A stretch of DNA of 64,000 bases from contig JAJPIW010000102.1 of the NCBI GenBank assembly GCA_021324575.1, positions 1 through 64,000 on the forward strand, in the 5' to 3' direction. This DNA is from Intrasporangiaceae bacterium (GTDB lineage: Bacteria; Actinomycetota; Actinomycetes; Actinomycetales; Dermatophilaceae). Below are positions 8,704-36,439 of this stretch, one piece after another (the stretch's first letter is position 1; the number at the start of each line of letters is the position of its first letter). The position numbers and the translations under genes are program-made. The notes beneath the pieces are model-generated. The model was given only the letters and a program-made list of their open reading frames with translations, was not told the DNA's origin and did not search any database.

Positions 8704-9549
8704 ATGAGCAACGCCTATCCGTCGACGGTCCTCCGCCGGCTGCTCGCGCACCCCCGGTTCGAGGTCCTGCCGACGCCGTCGGCCGAGGACCAGGTCCGGG
8801 CGCACGTCCCGACCGAGGTGACGGTGACCGTCACGGCGTCCCCCGCCAAGCCGTTGGCGACCACCATCGACCTGACCTGCCGGCTGGCCGCCGACGGCTA
8901 TGACGTCGTCCCGCACATCGCCGCCCGGATGGTGTCCGGGCGCCCCGAGCTCGCCGATCTCGTCGCCCGGCTCACCGAGGCAGGCGTGCGCAAGGTCTTC
9001 GTTCCGGCTGGCGACGCCAAGGAGCCCGCCGGCACCTACATCCAGTCGCTCGACCTGCTGCGCGACCTGAAGGAGCTCGGCAGCCCCTTCGCCGAGGTCG
9101 CCATCACCGGCTACCCGGAGACCCACCCCTCCATCGATGACGACGTCACCGTCCAGGCGATGTGGGACAAGCAGGACTTCGCGTCGCACATCGTGTCGAA
9201 CATGACCTTCGGCGACGAGCACCTCGCCCAGTGGGTCGAGCGGATCCGCCGGCGCGGGATCCTGCTGCCGCTCTATGTCGGGGTTCCGGGCCCGGTCGAG
9301 CGGGCCAAGCTGCTCGGCATGGCGACCAAGATCGGGGTCGGCGAGTCGATGCGGTTCCTCGCCAAGCAGAAGGGCATTTTCGCCCGGATCGCCGGGCCTG
9401 GCTTCGCCACCGACGCCTTCGTCCACCGGGTCGCAGCCCTCGCCGCCAACGATCGGCTCGCGATCGCCGGGCTGCACGTGTTCACGTTCAACCAGTTGGA
9501 GGCCGCCGAGGCCTGGCGGCAGCGGATGCTCGCCGAGGACGGCCGCTGA
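8704..9549 (+). CDS. Methylenetetrahydrofolate reductase family protein
   Basis: MSNAYPSTVLRRLLAHPRFEVLPTPSAEDQVRAHVP...GYPETHPSI...DFASHIVSNMTFG...LPLYVGVPGP. Confidence 0.8.
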   Translation: MSNAYPSTVLRRLLAHPRFEVLPTPSAEDQVRAHVPTEVTVTVTASPAKPLATTIDLTCRLAADGYDVVPHIAARMVSGRPELADLVARLTEAGVRKVFVPAGDAKEPAGTYIQSLDLLRDLKELGSPFAEVAITGYPETHPSIDDDVTVQAMWDKQDFASHIVSNMTFGDEHLAQWVERIRRRGILLPLYVGVPGPVERAKLLGMATKIGVGESMRFLAKQKGIFARIAGPGFATDAFVHRVAALAANDRLAIAGLHVFTFNQLEAAEAWRQRMLAEDGR

Positions 9550-9555
9550 ACGCAC

Positions 9556-9581
9556 CGGCATACGGACCTTCTCGTATGCCG
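9556..9581. terminator. Inverted pair of GGCATACG words (CGGCATACG-gaccttct-CGTATGCCG) in the intergenic gap
   Basis: 9-bp perfect arms between two + strand genes. Confidence 0.55.
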
Positions 9582-17524: not shown

Positions 17525-19465
17525 TCAGCTGGGGAAGGAGAGGTGGTCGATGAACCGGTCGTTGAAGTCGGAGCGGTCCGAGAGCTCGACATAGCGCACC
17601 TCCTCCAGCAGCGCCTCAGCGCCCGCGCGCTCGCGCGAGGACAACAGCGCCATCTTCGCTCCCTCGCCGGCAACGTTGCCAGCGCTGACGATTCGCAGCA
17701 CCGGCAGCTTCGGGACGAGCCCGATCCGGATGGCCGACGCCGGCGAGAGGTACGACCCGAACGACCCGGCGAGCAGGACCTGCTGGATGTCGGCCTGGTC
17801 GACGCCGATCTCCTCGCAGAGCAGGGCCCAGCCGGTCGCGATCGCGCCCTTGGCGAACTGGAGCTCGCGGACGTCGCGCTGGGAGAGGTAGACCGAGTCT
17901 TCTGCGGGTTCGCCGTCGGTATGCCGGTGGAGGACGAAGACGCGCTCCTTGCCGATGGCTGTGAGCCGGTCAGCCAGGTGCGGAAGTCGTTCTGCGGCAA
18001 CCCCATCGGGGATGAAGCGGCCGCTGGCGTCGAGGAGCCCGACCTTGGCCAGCTCGGCCACGACGTCGACCAGACCCGATCCGCACAGACCCCGTGGCAC
18101 GGTCTCACCGATGACGCCGAGCACGACCGGCGACTCGCCGTCGACCGGCTCGGCCGCGATGCGGACTGTCTCGATCGCGCCGTCCGAGGCACGCATGCCG
18201 CACCGGATGGCTCCGCCCTCGAACGCCGGACCCGCCGGCGCGGCAGTCGCGACGATGGTGTCGCCGTCGGACAGGACGATCTCGCAGTTGGTGCCGACGT
18301 CGATGAACAACCTGGTCCGCTTGTCGCGGTCCATCCCCGCGGCCAGCATGCCGGCGACGATGTCACCGCCGACGTAGGCGCCCAGGGCCGGGAAGATGAC
18401 CGCGCGGGCGCCCGGGTGCAGGTCGAGCCCGACCTCGGTCGCGGGCAGCGTCGGCCACGAGGCGGTGCTCTGGATGAAGGGGGCGACCCCGAGCGGCTCG
18501 GGGTCGACGCCGAGCAGCAGGGCAGTCATCGTCGCGTTGCCCGCGACGGCCACCTCGAGGACCTCGGTCAGCTCGACGCCACCCTCCCGACACACGTCGG
18601 CAGCGAGCTCGGCCAGCGTTGCCTGGGCGAGAGACCGGAGCCGTGGCAGCGCCTCGGGGTCCATCATCGTGGCGCTGATCCGGGTGATGACGTCGGCGCC
18701 GAACGGCTGCTGCTTGTTGAGCATCGACTCGACGGCGAGCGGGGTCCCGGTCCCGAGGTCGAGCAGGGTGGCGACAACGGTCGTGGTGCCCAGGTCGAAG
18801 GCCATGCCGAACCGGCGATCGGTCGTGTCCCCGCCCTCGACGTCGACAAGGGCCTCGTCGACGATGGCTGCGGTCACCTTGAAGTCGTTGTCTCGCAACA
18901 CCTTTGGCAGCTGCCGCAGAACGTGCAGATCGGCCGTCAGCTCGAGGTCGTCGATCGCGTCGAGGACCCGCTGGAGGTCGGTCCGCTGGTCGCGCAGGGT
19001 CGGCTCGTCGAGCTCGAGATAGCGCTTCTGGACCGCCGGCCGGAGGATGACCTGACGCCCGACCCCGACCGTGGCCGCCTTGGGCCGGGTCATGAGCGGC
19101 GGGACGTGGACGTCGAGGTCGGCCGTCGCCCGGACGAGGCAGGCGAGGCGCCAGCCGTCCCTGATCTCCGACGCCGTGAAGGTCCGCTGGTCGTGCGAGG
19201 TCACCGGGGCCGAGCCCGACGTCAGCTGGACCTTGCACTTGCGGCACGTCCCGTGACCCCCGCAGGTCGAGTCGATGGCGATGCCGTTCCACGACGCCGC
19301 GTCGAACACCGACACACCCGGTGGGACCCGCACGTCGCGAGACGCCGGGGCGAACCGCAGCAACACCCGCCCGGTGCCGTCGTGCGCGACCTCGCCGCCG
19401 CCGCGACGCGGCAGCAGGCCCTCGCGCCGCAGGTCCTCGACGTCGATCGGCTCCTGGTCACTCAC
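17525..19465 (-). CDS. 2Fe-2S/ASKHA-domain corrinoid activation (reactivase) protein, RamA/DUF4445-like
   Basis: CGGHGTCRKCKVQL ferredoxin motif; GMAFDLGTTTVVATLLDLGTG; FIDVGTNCEIVLSDGD. Confidence 0.85.
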   Translation of the reverse strand: MSDQEPIDVEDLRREGLLPRRGGGEVAHDGTGRVLLRFAPASRDVRVPPGVSVFDAASWNGIAIDSTCGGHGTCRKCKVQLTSGSAPVTSHDQRTFTASEIRDGWRLACLVRATADLDVHVPPLMTRPKAATVGVGRQVILRPAVQKRYLELDEPTLRDQRTDLQRVLDAIDDLELTADLHVLRQLPKVLRDNDFKVTAAIVDEALVDVEGGDTTDRRFGMAFDLGTTTVVATLLDLGTGTPLAVESMLNKQQPFGADVITRISATMMDPEALPRLRSLAQATLAELAADVCREGGVELTEVLEVAVAGNATMTALLLGVDPEPLGVAPFIQSTASWPTLPATEVGLDLHPGARAVIFPALGAYVGGDIVAGMLAAGMDRDKRTRLFIDVGTNCEIVLSDGDTIVATAAPAGPAFEGGAIRCGMRASDGAIETVRIAAEPVDGESPVVLGVIGETVPRGLCGSGLVDVVAELAKVGLLDASGRFIPDGVAAERLPHLADRLTAIGKERVFVLHRHTDGEPAEDSVYLSQRDVRELQFAKGAIATGWALLCEEIGVDQADIQQVLLAGSFGSYLSPASAIRIGLVPKLPVLRIVSAGNVAGEGAKMALLSSRERAGAEALLEEVRYVELSDRSDFNDRFIDHLSFPS

Positions 19466-20384
19466 GTCGCGAGAGCCGCCTGCGCCGCCTCGGCCGCCTG
19501 CGCCAGCGCTGCCTCGGCCGCCTGCCTGCGCCGGAACGCCGAGATCCACGCGCCACCCCACTCGTCGTGCCCGAGGAGCAGGTCGGCGGCCCGCACCGCC
19601 TCGACGACCTGTGGCGTCCGGGCGTCCATGATCGCGCTCGTCATGCCCACACCCATCGCGAGCGGGAGCCAGGCGGCGTTGATCGCGTGCCGACCCGGCA
19701 TACCGAACGACACGTTGGAGGCGCCGCAGGTCATGTTCAGGCCCCAGCGCTCGTGGATCGCCCGGATCGTCTCCAGCGCGGCCACCCCCACCGTGGGGTC
19801 CGCGCCGATCGGCATCGCGAGCGGGTCGATGACGATGTCCTCGATGGCGATGCCGTACTCCTCCGTCGCCACCCGGACGATCTTCTCGGTCAGCTCGATC
19901 CGCTTGCCGGACTCCATCGGGATCTCGTCGTGGTCGTTGGGCAGCGCGATGATCGCCGCGTCGTACTTCTTGACCAGCGGCAGTACAGCGGCGAGACGGT
20001 CATCCTCTGCCGTACAGGAGTTGACCAGCGCACGACCCTTGTATGCCGCGAGCCCGGCCTCGAGCGCCTCGACCACCGAGGAGTCGATGCAGACCGGCAG
20101 GTCGGTGAGCGACTGGACGATGCCGATCGCCCGGACGAGCAGCTCGGGCTCGTCGGTGAGCGGGACGCCCATGTTGACGTCGAGGACGTCGGCGCCGCCG
20201 GCGACCTGGGCCAGGACGTCCTTCTCGATCGCGGAGTAGTCGCCCGCACGCAGCTGGGCCTGGAAGACCTTGCGGCCGGTCGGGTTGATCCGCTCACCGA
20301 TGATGCAGAACGGGCGGTTGCTTGCGAGGACGACTTCCTTTGTCGCAGAACGCAACCGGGTCTCGCGGACGGGTGCAGCCCCCA

Positions 20385-20385
<1 letters not shown>
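19462..20385 (-). CDS. Methyltetrahydrofolate:corrinoid methyltransferase (pterin-binding family)
   Basis: IIGERINPTGRKVFQAQLRAGDYSAIEKDVLAQVAGGADVLDVNMGVPL...CIDSS...GASNVSFGMPGR. Confidence 0.85.
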
Positions 20386-21046
<661 letters not shown>

Positions 21047-21050
<4 letters not shown>

Positions 21051-21802
21051 GCGGCGCCATCCTTTCGGTGTCGGCTGATCTGGTCGGACAGAGTGCGGGC
21101 GGCCCGCAGGACGGTAGGCCCCAGAGTGGACAGCTGGTCGGCAAGCCGGGCCGACGGGCCCGAGACCCCAAGCGCTGCAATGCATTTGCCGTCGACGATG
21201 ACGGGGGCGGCGACCCCGGTGAGGCCCACCTCGAGCTCGTCGACGGTCGTGGCATAACCACGAGCGCGTATGCCGGGCAGCTGGGCCCGCAGGGCGGCGG
21301 TCGTCGCGACGGCGGCCTTGGTCGGCCGCGCCAGGCGGCCCACCGGCGGGTCGAGGACGCGCTCGGCATACAGGACCTTGCCCAGGGCGGACAGGTGCGG
21401 CGGGACCTGGACACCGATCCAGTCGCGGCTCGCGAGCATGAAGGTGCCCGCGACCTGGGCGATGTGGACGACCTCGCCGCCGCGGGCGACACCGACGTTG
21501 ACCGTCTCGCCGGTCAGCACGCGCAGGTGTTCTATGACCGGCTGGGCGAGCTGAGCCAGCTCCTCGTCCCGCCCCTGATGCGCGGCGAAGTGGGAGAAGA
21601 GCGACCCGGCGACCCATGCACCGCTGTCGTCGCGACCCAGTAGGGCAGACCGCTCCAGGGCGGCTAGCAGCCGGGAGGTCGTGCTGCGCGGCATCCCGGT
21701 CTCGAGGCACAGGTCGGAGAACGAGGCGGGTCGATCGGCCCGGACGACGAGCGCGACGAGGTGCGCGGCGCGGTCGACGGCCTGAGTGCCAGTGCTCGCC
21801 AT
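21047..21802 (-). CDS. IclR-family transcriptional regulator
   Basis: AVDRAAHLVALVVRADRPASFSDLCLETGMPRSTTSRLLAALERS; C-terminal effector domain. Confidence 0.85.
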
Positions 21803-21829
21803 CGCCGTCCTTTCCTGGTGCCCACGATA

Positions 21830-21845
21830 TGGAACCAATGTTCCA
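21830..21845. promoter_or_regulatory. Putative operator TGGAACCAATGTTCCA between divergent IclR and MttB genes
   Basis: 6-bp perfect arms, 4-nt spacer; TGGAA...TTCCA type like IclR-family sites. Confidence 0.6.
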
Positions 21846-21894
21846 CATGATGAGGCTAGGATCTGAGGCACCTCACGTCAAGAAGGAGATGCAA

Positions 21895-23334
21895 ATGTTT
21901 CGCAATGCGATGCCACGCTACGAGATCCTGTCGGCCGATGCCCTGGCCAAGCTGGACGCAGGGTGGCGCCGGCTGGTCAGCGAGATCGGCGTCGAGTTCA
22001 TGAGCGACCGGGCTCTGGACCTCTTCCGCGCGGCCGGTCAGCGCGTGGAGGACAAGACGGTCTTCCTGGACCCCGAGTTCGTCCTGGCCCAGGCGGCCAA
22101 GGCGCCCAGGGAGTTCGACGTGCAGGCCCGCAACCCCGAGAAGTCGGTCCACATCGGCGGCGACGCCATGGCTTTCGGCGCGGTCTACGGGCCCCCGTTC
22201 GTCCGCCAGGGCGACGTGCGCCGCGACGGCACGATGGAGGACTTCCGCAACTTCTCCCGGCTGGCCCAGAGCTTCGACGTCCTGGACTCCGCGGGCGGCG
22301 TCGTCAACGAGCCCAACGACGCTCCCCTCGACAGCCGGCACCTCGACATGACGTTTGCGCTGCAGACGCTCACTGACAAGATCTACATGGGCAACGTCGT
22401 GTCCGGCGTCAACGCCGCCGACACCATCGCCATGGGGTCCATCCTGTTCGGCGGCCGCGACAAGATCGAGCAGACGCCGTGCTCCATCTCGCTCATCAAC
22501 TGCAACAGCCCGCTGCGCTGGGACGACCGGATGCTCGACGCCATGTTCGAGTACTGCGAGGCGGCCCAGCCGGTCGTTCTCACCCCGTTCATCCTGATGG
22601 GCGCGATGTCGCCGGTGACCATCCCTGCTGCGCTCGTCCAGCAGATGGCCGAGGCGCTGTCCGGCATCGCCCTGGCCCAGTTGATCCGGCCCGGCTGCCC
22701 CGTCATCTTCGGCTCGTTCCTGTCCAACATCGACATGCAGAGCGGCTCCCCGACCTTCGGCACACCCGAGTCGGCCATCGGGCTGCTCTGCACGGGGCAG
22801 ATCGCGCGCCACTTCGGTCTGCCGTTCCGCTCCGGTGGCGGCCTCACGTCCTCCCAGCTGCCCGACGCCCAGGCCGGCTACGAGGCGCTCATGACCCTCA
22901 TGCCGACCTTCCTCGCTGGCGCCAACTGGGTCATGCACACGGCCGGCTGGCTCGACGGCGGCCTCGTCGCCTCCTTCGAGAAGTTCGTCATCGACTGCCA
23001 GATCACCGAGATGCTCAAGCACATGTTCAAGCCGCTGGAGATCGACGAGGGCTCGATCGCCTTCGACGCACACCAAGAGGTCGGCCACGGCGGTCACTTC
23101 CTCGGCGCGATGCACACGATGGAGCGCTTCCGCACCTGCTTCTACCGTCCGTTCCTCAACTCCTCGGACAACTTCGAGAAGTGGATGCGCAACGGCGCCC
23201 TGGACACCGCTGCCCGCGCGGGGAACATCTACAAGTCCCGCCTGGAGGCCTACGTTCAGCCGCCGCTCGACGACGCGATCCGCGCCGAGCTGGAGGAGTA
23301 CGTCATCCGTCGGCGGGCCGAGCTCGGGGACTGA
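21895..23334 (+). CDS. MttB-family (trimethylamine/betaine-type) corrinoid methyltransferase, non-pyrrolysine
   Basis: FRNAMPRYEILSADALAKLDAGWRRLVSEIGVEF...; uninterrupted ORF with no in-frame TAG; RBS AAGGAG. Confidence 0.85.
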   Translation: MFRNAMPRYEILSADALAKLDAGWRRLVSEIGVEFMSDRALDLFRAAGQRVEDKTVFLDPEFVLAQAAKAPREFDVQARNPEKSVHIGGDAMAFGAVYGPPFVRQGDVRRDGTMEDFRNFSRLAQSFDVLDSAGGVVNEPNDAPLDSRHLDMTFALQTLTDKIYMGNVVSGVNAADTIAMGSILFGGRDKIEQTPCSISLINCNSPLRWDDRMLDAMFEYCEAAQPVVLTPFILMGAMSPVTIPAALVQQMAEALSGIALAQLIRPGCPVIFGSFLSNIDMQSGSPTFGTPESAIGLLCTGQIARHFGLPFRSGGGLTSSQLPDAQAGYEALMTLMPTFLAGANWVMHTAGWLDGGLVASFEKFVIDCQITEMLKHMFKPLEIDEGSIAFDAHQEVGHGGHFLGAMHTMERFRTCFYRPFLNSSDNFEKWMRNGALDTAARAGNIYKSRLEAYVQPPLDDAIRAELEEYVIRRRAELGD

Positions 23335-23343
23335 CGTCCCGAT

Positions 23344-23375
23344 CTCGTATGCCGGGTGAGCACCCGGCATACGAG
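23344..23375. terminator. Strong hairpin CTCGTATGCCGGGTG-ag-CACCCGGCATACGAG followed by AGATCTTTT
   Basis: 15-bp perfect arms with T-run, immediately 3' of the MttB gene; built from an inverted pair of the GGCATACG word. Confidence 0.85.
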
Positions 23376-23435
23376 AGATCTTTTCAACCGCATGTATCAG
23401 GGGCCCTATCCGGGCCTCTACTGGTCATGCACCTG

Positions 23436-23633
23436 ATGAGCGACCCCGTTGCCGTTGCCCCGCACCTGACACCTGAGCAGATCGTCGAGCGCGAGCACCT
23501 GTACGGGGTCCGTTCTGTGCGCCGGGCCTCGGTGCGAGCCACTCGGGCGCGACTCGCCGCAGATCTCGTCCGACTCGGACGCTGGGAGCGGGGCGGCGAG
23601 CTGTGGACGAGCTCTAGCGAGCAGCTGGCCTGA
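23436..23633 (+). CDS. Small hypothetical protein
   Basis: MSDPVAVAPHLTPEQIVEREHLYGVRSVRRASVRATRARLAADL... Confidence 0.4.
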   Translation: MSDPVAVAPHLTPEQIVEREHLYGVRSVRRASVRATRARLAADLVRLGRWERGGELWTSSSEQLA

Positions 23634-23758
23634 CCAGACCTCGACCAGGCGTCAGGAATGCCGACGGGTCGAGCGGATGGGGGTACCCGCGGGCGCCCGC
23701 GCGACGGAGGGGTCGTGCGGGCACCCGCGCCATGGCAGGTGGTCGCAGCCCGGTCGGG

Positions 23759-24622
23759 TCAGGAGAAGACGACGGTCCGGTCCACGTTGAGCAGGACGCG
23801 GCTCTCGCTGTGCCAGCGGACCGCCCGGGTGAGCACGCGCGACTCGCACTCCTCCCCCGCGCGGACGAGGTCGTCGGCGGTCAGCCGGTGGTCGACGCGC
23901 ACGACGTCCTGCTCGATGATCGGGCCCTCGTCCAGGTCAGCGGTCACGTAGTGCGCCGTGGCGCCCACGAGCTTGACCCCGCGGGCGAAGGCCTGGTGGT
24001 AGGGCTTGGCGCCCTTGAAGCTCGGCAGGAACGAGTGGTGGATGTTGATGATCTTCCCCGACATCTCGCGGGTCAGGTCGTCGGAGAGCACCTGCATGTA
24101 GCGGGCCAGGACGACCAGGTCGATGCCGAGATCGCTGACGAGAGAACGCAGCTCGGCCTCGGCCCACGGCTTGGTCTCGGCGGTGATCGGGATGTGGTGG
24201 TACGGAATCCCGTATGCCGCCGCGAGATCGGCCAGGTCGGGATGGTTGCTCACGATGGCCGGGATCTCGATGTTGAGCGAGCCGGTCCGCCAGCGGTAGA
24301 GCAGGTCGTTGAGGCAGTGCCCGAACTTGCTCACCATGATGAGGGTCCGGTACCGCGCGTGGGCGTCCCACATCTCCCAGGTGATGCCGAACTCCGTTGC
24401 GGCCGAACCGAACTGGGCTCGAAGGTCGTCCAGACCCAGCCCCCCAGCGGGCACCGAGAAGACGATCCGCATAAAGAACCGGCCACCCCGTGGGTCGTCG
24501 AACTGCTGGCTCTCCTCGATGTTGGCGCCCTGCTCGAAGAGCAGCTGGCTGACCCTTGCGACGATACCGGGGCGGTCCGGGCAGGACAGGGTGAGGACGA
24601 GGTCGGTGCCCTCGGCGGTCAT
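23759..24622 (-). CDS. purU: Formyltetrahydrofolate deformylase
   Basis: LTLSCPDRPGIVARVSQLLFEQGANIEESQQFDDPRGGRFFMRIVF...INIHHSFLPSFKGAKPYHQAF. Confidence 0.95.
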   Translation of the reverse strand: MTAEGTDLVLTLSCPDRPGIVARVSQLLFEQGANIEESQQFDDPRGGRFFMRIVFSVPAGGLGLDDLRAQFGSAATEFGITWEMWDAHARYRTLIMVSKFGHCLNDLLYRWRTGSLNIEIPAIVSNHPDLADLAAAYGIPYHHIPITAETKPWAEAELRSLVSDLGIDLVVLARYMQVLSDDLTREMSGKIINIHHSFLPSFKGAKPYHQAFARGVKLVGATAHYVTADLDEGPIIEQDVVRVDHRLTADDLVRAGEECESRVLTRAVRWHSESRVLLNVDRTVVFS

Positions 24623-24769
24623 CGTGGAGTCCCTTCGTCGTACTGTCGGACCGTATCCCGTGGAACCCAAAGGTCCTCCGGCCGGTGCTCCTGACGCAAC
24701 TCGGCGCGGCATAGGCAACAAACGGGATCCTAGACCCCACCCTGTCCGGGAGGGAAGCGTTCGACTAGT

Positions 24770-24786
24770 GTCGCGTCATGCGCAAC
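24770..24786. promoter_or_regulatory. Putative autoregulatory IclR-type operator GTCGCG-TCATG-CGCAAC over the IclR start codon
   Basis: Matches the shared palindrome GTTGCG-N5-CGCAAC with one mismatch. Confidence 0.5.
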
Positions 24787-25560
24787 AGCGAGGCTGCCGA
24801 GCGCGCCACGGTGCAGTCCGTCGACCGGGCGGTGAGCGTGCTGGAGCTGCTCGCCCAGCACGGGACCGCCGGGGTCACGGTGCTTGCGGCAGAGCTGGGG
24901 GTCCACAAGAGCACGGCGTCCAGGCTGCTCGGAGCGCTGGAGGCGCGCGGTCTGGTCGAGCAGGTCGAGGAGCGTGGGCAGTACCGGCTCGGCGTCGGGA
25001 TCCTGCGCCTCGCCGGTGCCAGCAACGCCCGTCTCGACCTCGTCGAGCAGGCCAGACCGATCTGTCGAGCCCTGGCCATTGCCACCAACGACACGGTCAA
25101 CCTGACGGTCCTGGACGCCGGAACGGCTTACTACATCGACCAGGTCACCGGGTCGCCGGCGAACTCGTCGTGGAACTGGGTCGGCCAGCACATCCCTCTG
25201 CACGCGACGAGCAACGGCAAGATGCTCGTCTGCGAGCTGCCGGAGCCGACGCTCACCGAGACCCTCGGTGAGCTTCGTCCCTACACCGCAGCGACGATCA
25301 CCGACCGGGCCGTGCTGGATGTCCAGCTCGCTGCGGCCCGGGAACACGGGTATGCCGTGGCGTCGGACGAGCTCGACCTGGGCTTGACGGCGATCGCGTC
25401 GGCCATTCGCAACGCTCATGGCGAGATCGTCGCGTCGGTCAGTGTGTCGGGGCCGACCTTCCGCCTGGGCTCGGGCGTGCTGAGCAGACTCGCCCCCCAG
25501 GTCATGGAAGCGGGGCGGGCGATCTCGGCACGCCTCGGCTGGCTGCCCCCGGGCGGCTGA
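24778..25560 (+). CDS. IclR-family transcriptional regulator
   Basis: QSVDRAVSVLELLAQHGTAGVTVLAAELGVHKSTASRLLGALEARGLVEQ. Confidence 0.95.
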   Translation: MRNSEAAERATVQSVDRAVSVLELLAQHGTAGVTVLAAELGVHKSTASRLLGALEARGLVEQVEERGQYRLGVGILRLAGASNARLDLVEQARPICRALAIATNDTVNLTVLDAGTAYYIDQVTGSPANSSWNWVGQHIPLHATSNGKMLVCELPEPTLTETLGELRPYTAATITDRAVLDVQLAAAREHGYAVASDELDLGLTAIASAIRNAHGEIVASVSVSGPTFRLGSGVLSRLAPQVMEAGRAISARLGWLPPGG

Positions 25561-35395: not shown

Positions 35396-36367
35396 ATGGC
35401 ACGAGGAAGCATCCGGCTGCTGCCGGTCTGCGCCGCCGCCACGCTCGCCCTCGGGCTCTCCGCGTGCGGTGGCGGCAACATCAACAGCGGGGGCGGCTCC
35501 GCCTCCGGCGGAGCGGCGAGCAAGTGCGGGAACTTCCGCATCGCCGTGAACCCGTGGACCGGCTACGTCGCCGACGCATATGTCGTCGGCTACGTCGCCA
35601 AAACCAAGCTCGGCTGCAACGTCTCCTACCAGAACGTCAAAGAGCAGGTTGGCTGGCAGGGCATGGCATCCGGGTCGATCGACACGATTCTGGAGAACTG
35701 GGGTCACGCAGACCTGGTCAAGCAGTACATCACGGGCCAGAAGTCGGTCCAGGACGCCGGGATGACAGGCAACGAAGGAATCATCGGCTGGTACATCCCG
35801 CCGTGGATGGCCACCAAGTACCCGGACATCACGGACTGGAAGAACCTCAACAAGTACGCCAACCTGTTCAAGACGTCGGAGTCCGGCAGTCAGGGGCAGC
35901 TCCTCGACGGCGACCCGTCCTACGTGACGAACGACCAGGCGCTGGTGACGAACCTCAAGCTCAACTTCAAGGTTGTGGTCGGCGGCTCCGAGGCGTCGCT
36001 CATCGAGAGCTTCCGCAACGCCGAGAAGAACAAGACTCCGCTGCTGGCCTACTTCTACGAGCCGCAGTGGTTCTTCAGCGAGGTCAAGCTCGCCAAGGTG
36101 AACCTGCCTGCCTACACCGCGGGGTGTGACGCCGACGCCAAGAAGATCGCCTGCGACTACCCGCCCTACCACCTCAACAAGCTGATCTCGACGAAGTTCG
36201 CGAACGGCGGGTCCTCTGCGGTGGGCCTGGTGAAGGGCTTCACGTGGACCAACGAGGATCAGAACCTGGTCGCCGAGTACATCGCCAAGGACAACATGCA
36301 ACCGGAGGCAGCGGCCAAGAAGTGGGTCGACGCCAACCCGGACAAGGTCGCGGCCTGGCTGAAGTAG
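35396..36367 (+). CDS. Glycine betaine ABC transporter substrate-binding lipoprotein (ProX/OpuAC-type)
   Basis: Lipobox LGLSACGGG; FRIAVNPWTGYVADAYVVGYVAKTKLGCNVSYQNVKEQVGWQGMASG. Confidence 0.9.
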   Translation: MARGSIRLLPVCAAATLALGLSACGGGNINSGGGSASGGAASKCGNFRIAVNPWTGYVADAYVVGYVAKTKLGCNVSYQNVKEQVGWQGMASGSIDTILENWGHADLVKQYITGQKSVQDAGMTGNEGIIGWYIPPWMATKYPDITDWKNLNKYANLFKTSESGSQGQLLDGDPSYVTNDQALVTNLKLNFKVVVGGSEASLIESFRNAEKNKTPLLAYFYEPQWFFSEVKLAKVNLPAYTAGCDADAKKIACDYPPYHLNKLISTKFANGGSSAVGLVKGFTWTNEDQNLVAEYIAKDNMQPEAAAKKWVDANPDKVAAWLK

Positions 36368-36393: not shown

Positions 36394-36439
36394 GCGTATG
36401 CCGTGGGCTCGCCTCTCCCGGTGCGCCCACGGCATACGC
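36394..36439. terminator. Hairpin of inverted GGCATACG words GCGTATGCCGTGGGC ... GCCCACGGCATACGC
   Basis: 15-bp perfect arms, 16-nt loop, immediately 3' of binding-protein gene. Confidence 0.7.

Follow-up and report, generated by a model that had tools for sequence, protein, structure and literature searches.

Hairpin Downstream of the MttB-Family Gene

The 64-kb window, i.e., the whole stretch of 64,000 nucleotides that was analysed, contains a gene of the MttB family (trimethylamine methyltransferase) at positions 21895–23334 of the forward strand (Pfam PF06253, E = 4.8e-186), and a hairpin starts 8 nt after its stop codon. The gene assignment thus agrees with the original prediction, in which two inverted copies of an abundant genomic word were taken to form a terminator after an MttB gene. 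The inverted repeat at 23344–23375 reads CTCGTATGCCGGGTG-AG-CACCCGGCATACGAG and is followed by AGATCTTTT; its position and sequence had been given exactly, whereas the predicted loop of 2 nt is physically a loop of 4 nt (GAGC). An extra outer T-A pair extends the stem to 15 pairs at 23343–23376 (forward strand), and this hairpin is proposed as a 3′-end or terminator element. Folded as RNA, it has a free energy of -28.9 kcal/mol (z = -6.2), matched by none of 200 shuffled sequences. Both arms carry the word CGGCATAC in inverted orientation, as had been proposed: the left arm at 23347–23354 on the reverse strand and the right arm at 23365–23372 on the forward strand. The tail GATCTTTTCA (23377–23386, forward strand) has T at 5 of 10 positions and is among the more T-rich tails of word hairpins, and TTTT begins 4 nt past the end of the stem.

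Farther downstream, a convergent formyl-transferase/ACT gene (PurU-like by Pfam; 23759–24622, reverse strand) has its 3′ end towards the hairpin, and a 68-aa frame between the two (23427–23633) has no Pfam match. A pterin-binding methyltransferase, IclR regulators, and the PurU-like gene surround the MttB gene within 19465–25557, and this content suggests a one-carbon (methylamine/betaine) catabolic cluster. Conservation of the hairpin across MttB genes was considered and rejected, as none of 18 readable homologues in other genomes, that of the congener G007 included, has one; the MttB hairpin is a feature of its own lineage without a counterpart at related MttB genes. Two further word pairs lie in the window, both on the forward strand: a second word-built hairpin with 15-bp perfect arms (36395–36438) approximately 26 nt past the stop of an OpuAC-domain gene (35396–36367, forward strand), and an inverted pair of the opposite (+-) orientation (9556–9581) 6 nt past the stop of an MTHFR-domain gene (8704–9549, forward strand).

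Abundance and Placement of the Word

By de novo count, CGGCATAC, mostly with G as the next base, is the most over-represented 8-mer of the 64 kb (79 copies vs 1.1 expected). The form GGCATACG has 53 copies in the window against 1.25 expected, all preceded by C, and CGGCATACG occurs 3219 times on the two strands of the 4.24-Mb source genome (1617 + 1602), the density of the word being approximately one per kilobase. The word is non-palindromic (CGGCATAC/GTATGCCG) and is accompanied on its 5′ side by a weaker extended consensus, which stands out most among the intergenic copies (C at -2 in 62%, C at -4 in 57%, and G at -7 in 59%).

Context statistics were obtained from 1.24 Mb of the source genome (the window and L099–L158) plus targeted loci around pairs, with uncurated gene calls from our own script and a codon model (1121 genes, 88% coding). 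Genic copies use mainly two frames, through the codons GCA and TAT; these codons are rare in a genome of such high GC content, and their use indicates selection at the level of DNA rather than of protein. Words are also kept in place, as 16 of 22 are retained in the congener G057 in comparison with 29% of composition-matched 8-mers (p = 2e-5). The two strands are balanced on each long contig beyond chance (chi2 7.8, 25 df).

Low GC content was used as a proxy for acquired DNA, and word density falls to 0.05 per kb at GC < 0.64, a class of 4 windows, from 1.2–1.35 per kb in the core; codon-usage oddity was tried as a marker of foreign genes and gave no clear trend, GC being the better marker. 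The longest word-free stretch covers 14.3 kb (L145:1847–16174) and is largely a polysaccharide/glycosyltransferase cluster of 58–63% GC in a genome of approximately 70% GC. This cluster was probably acquired. An rRNA operon as the content of the stretch was rejected because Rfam gave no match there.

Distribution in the Family and Competence Machinery

Most genera of a single family, Intrasporangiaceae (NCBI), carry the word in abundance, whereas 19 further families from the same order have it at background level. In a ComEC tree, word-rich congeners surround the word-poor genome G070, a placement indicating that an older trait was lost. Within genera g25 and g35, G070 and G126 are without the word and their sister genomes carry approximately 450–1400 copies; RecC is present in G126 and is not listed for its four sampled congeners. 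A different-word "dialect" in word-poor genera was rejected, since 40–60 kb from each of nine such genomes held no alternative word of comparable strength.

To our knowledge, transformation has not been studied in Intrasporangiaceae. The source genome (G000) has ComEA and ComEC in intact form, and T2SSF pilus-motor proteins are found in 147 of 149 family genomes. In Micrococcus luteus, pili of the Flp type are used for transformation (PMC4322843). ComEC, ComEA, and the pilus motors are, however, kept in many word-poor genera too, and the presence of ComEC or of pilus motors was rejected as the cause of word presence because these genes are universal. A short tblastn match had raised the suspicion of a broken ComEA in the word-poor G126; this was likewise rejected, the gene being intact (424 aa), and that genome showed nothing broken. 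N-methyl pilins, the class of Neisseria ComP and the only receptor type covered by the search, occur in 4 of 149 genomes and not in G000. Since none of these machinery genes distinguishes genomes rich in the word from those poor in it, and since N-methyl pilins are so scarce, the machinery provides permission for uptake, not proof of it.

Orientation and Spacing of Word Copies

Adjacent words alternate in orientation, with 967 inverted and 496 direct neighbours in the 1.24 Mb of the source genome (p = 3e-35), and five control 8-mers have no such excess. Pairs of the same orientation occur at 0.3–0.4 of expectation below 100 bp, at 0.5–0.7 between 100 and 800 bp, and at approximately 1 near 1 kb, whereas pairs of opposite orientation remain near expectation (0.94–1.4), save at distances under 60 bp, where the hairpins account for an excess. 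Each orientation of CGGCATAC forms its own evenly spaced set. Alternation was also found in four other genera sampled at 200 kb each (254 inverted to 170 direct when pooled, p = 5e-5), being clear in G066 and G099 and not significant in G061 and G039. This avoidance, which extends to approximately 1 kb and is confined to copies of the same orientation, would be explained if the word were recognised on a single DNA strand or from a single direction; under an orientation-blind receptor, opposite copies would be expected to avoid one another as well, and they do not.

The spacing of approximately 1.6 kb between same-orientation copies and the strand-specific avoidance would be in keeping with a signal read on one strand, such as Chi. 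The hairpin could then still be a 3′-end element, with the word itself serving as a site for an intracellular DNA protein in chromosome organisation, repair, or recombination, and DNA uptake would be uninvolved; the failure of the competence genes to track the word accords with this reading. Contigs, however, have no strand bias of the kind known for Chi or KOPS, and near-absence from low-GC islands is unexpected for a chromosome-packing site. Furthermore, RecC is absent from G000, the genome richest in the word, and is present in many word-poor genomes, which excludes a RecBCD-Chi signal. An intracellular site is unlikely on this evidence, and recognition during DNA uptake is preferred here.

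Inverted Word Pairs at Gene Ends

Close inverted pairs in the tail-inward (-+) orientation number 57 in the source genome, as against 16.5 expected from single-word density, whereas close direct pairs number 22 against 33 expected. Across the 149 family genomes, 926 -+ pairs were counted in comparison with 316 direct pairs, some of the latter being tandem duplications, and G015 alone has 29 -+ pairs against 1.5 expected and 0 direct pairs. An excess of close inverted pairs together with rarity of close direct pairs is the signature of known uptake words; per genome, Neisseria and Pasteurellaceae have 0–2 close direct pairs and 14 to 233 inverted ones (PMC1852404). The rarity of close direct pairs here matches the published USS data (PMC1852404), and the counts for both groups amount to the orientation effect at short range.

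As a check, the original prediction named whether inverted pairs concentrate immediately 3′ of genes beyond what single-word density would give, and the count shows that they do. The -+ pairs with spacers of at most 30 are distributed 29 intergenic to 22 coding, in comparison with 266 to 1223 for single words (p = 1e-9), a 6-fold intergenic enrichment, and 28 of the 29 intergenic pairs are located beside a gene 3′ end, in comparison with 123 of 176 unpaired words (123:53; p = 0.0012). Of the intergenic pairs, 22 are tandem, 6 convergent, and 1 divergent in gene context, at a median of 15.5 nt from the nearest stop. Because inverted pairs 3′ of genes far exceed single-word density, the opposite outcome specified in that prediction, i.e., pairs no more frequent there than expected, did not arise.

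It is conceivable that the pairs have no function and that short 3′ gaps, being free of counter-selection, merely collect more copies of a spreading word. Single words are indeed denser in gaps than in genes (1.77 vs 1.12 per kb in the 1.24 Mb), and the MttB hairpin itself is not conserved. Divergent gaps, however, are similar in word density and yet contain only 1 of the 29 tail-inward pairs (p = 0.0012), and direct pairs are depleted where inverted pairs are in excess. In addition, the stem grows past the word mainly at 3′ flanks, by 5.1 bp there vs 2.4 bp in genes (p = 0.01). Passive accumulation is therefore considered improbable, and a role of the word pairs as 3′-end hairpins is the better account.

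The surroundings of genes support such a role. Perfect hairpins of at least 10 bp occur at 13.0 per 10 kb in convergent gaps, 6.5 in tandem gaps, 2.1 in divergent gaps, and 0.7 in coding sequence, and the word lies inside 10 of the 83 (12%) at 3′ flanks and inside 0 of the 7 in divergent gaps; by our estimate, single-word density predicts approximately 1 of 83 at 3′ flanks. From this geography, the genome appears often to end genes with long perfect hairpins, the word supplying approximately one in eight. The content of T beside word hairpins is 22–24% against a background of 16%, so low a value that the classic U-tract is mostly missing; given this slight enrichment, word hairpins are read as terminators or 3′-end elements without a strong U-tract. 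The identification of the word-built hairpins as terminator-like structures at gene 3′ ends is well supported by position, and position together with stem strength suggests that RNA polymerase stops at them.

Other recurrent hairpins occur at gene ends. Perfect hairpins of 23–30 bp after genes at L102:2428–2493, L112:4207–4260, and L128:5876–5929 have the common sequence CAATTGTTCCGG(T/C)AGTCAC, which is unrelated to the word. Recurrent, terminator-like 3′ hairpins with the common sequence GGTTTATCGGGT.ACCCGATAAACC were found at L116:2176–2216, L157:12039–12077, and L151:17511–17547.

Comparison with Known Systems

The comparison with the DNA uptake sequences DUS and USS is based on published counts. 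The Neisseria DUS (GCCGTCTGAA) is likewise a non-palindromic word of approximately 10 bp, present at approximately one per kb, equally on both strands, and in genes and gaps, with close inverted pairs just after genes and rare close direct pairs (PMC1852404, PMC2397512). By contrast, the present word is a different one from an unrelated phylum, most of its hairpins have a weak T-tail or none, an N-methyl pilin receptor was not found in G000, and the role in uptake is here deduced from the genome; moreover, the DUS is present in approximately 55% of terminators, whereas the word is present in approximately 12% of 3′ hairpins. The Pasteurellaceae are nearer to this proportion, with 17–29% of terminators carrying the USS in four genomes (PMC1852404). 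The Haemophilus/Pasteurellaceae USS (AAGTGCGGT) resembles the word in density, strand balance, the occurrence of both pair orientations, and a weakly conserved, one-sided extended flank, and differs in sequence, GC content, and lineage, the T-rich extended flank being absent here.

In high-GC actinobacteria, long perfect hairpins that lack a U-tract are found at 3′ ends. The hairpins described here agree with these in their perfect stems of 10–30 bp directly past stops and in their density in convergent gaps, and they differ in that the word is the building block of approximately one in eight.

The word, being short and extremely over-represented throughout a clade, also recalls the cyanobacterial HIP1 (GCGATCGC), which is palindromic (PMC4390886) and linked to a methylase. 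A DNA-methyltransferase-linked mark of this type is very improbable here, as the word is non-palindromic and a palindrome could not show orientation-specific avoidance. Word hairpins are clustered at L118:8554–14745 and L131:2224–5057, on contigs C43 and C77, with the common interior CGTATGCCGCCCGCTC...GAGCGGGCGGCATACG, and are possibly duplicated gene-end modules. These few are all that would favour copies of a small mobile element (REP/MITE-like), an explanation that is scarcely credible because loops and flanks differ in almost all hairpins, which have only the 8–9 bp word in common, and single word copies far outnumber pairs.

Perspective

Taken together, we judge it slightly more probable than otherwise that the hairpin after the MttB gene is a transcript 3′-end element formed from an inverted word pair and that the word is a DNA uptake sequence of the family. 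This uptake reading, which the original prediction had advanced, fits the data better than the rivals tested, the uptake itself being deduced: it gains from the restriction to one family, strand balance, near-absence from low-GC DNA, conservation in place, and rarity of close direct pairs, and it draws nothing from the ComEC and pilus-motor genes, which do not track the word. As with DUS and USS, copy number is high on both strands, the inverted-pair signature lies 3′ of genes, the word is depleted in low-GC DNA, and competence genes are present, the latter equally in word-poor genomes; as in intrinsic terminators, a strong GC-rich hairpin soon follows the stop. In the proposed mechanism, a machine of the pilus/ComEA/ComEC type would prefer DNA carrying the word, and transformation would spread the word and hold its density at approximately one per kilobase. 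Chance pairs arising just after genes would be kept because they are also good hairpins, the MttB hairpin most likely acting as a terminator and possibly also as an RNA-stabilising end.

The uptake words described to date come from two Gram-negative families, and our search of the open-access literature found no report of one in Actinobacteria/Actinomycetota. The chances appear about even that sequence-specific uptake exists here outside Neisseriaceae and Pasteurellaceae, by means of a strand-specific word that is ancestral to the family, was lost in several genera, and was reused in hairpin terminators. If this is true, an uptake word, including its doubling at gene ends, would have originated independently in a high-GC Gram-positive family, and the dozens of related genera in which the word was kept or lost would constitute a natural experiment for finding its receptor.
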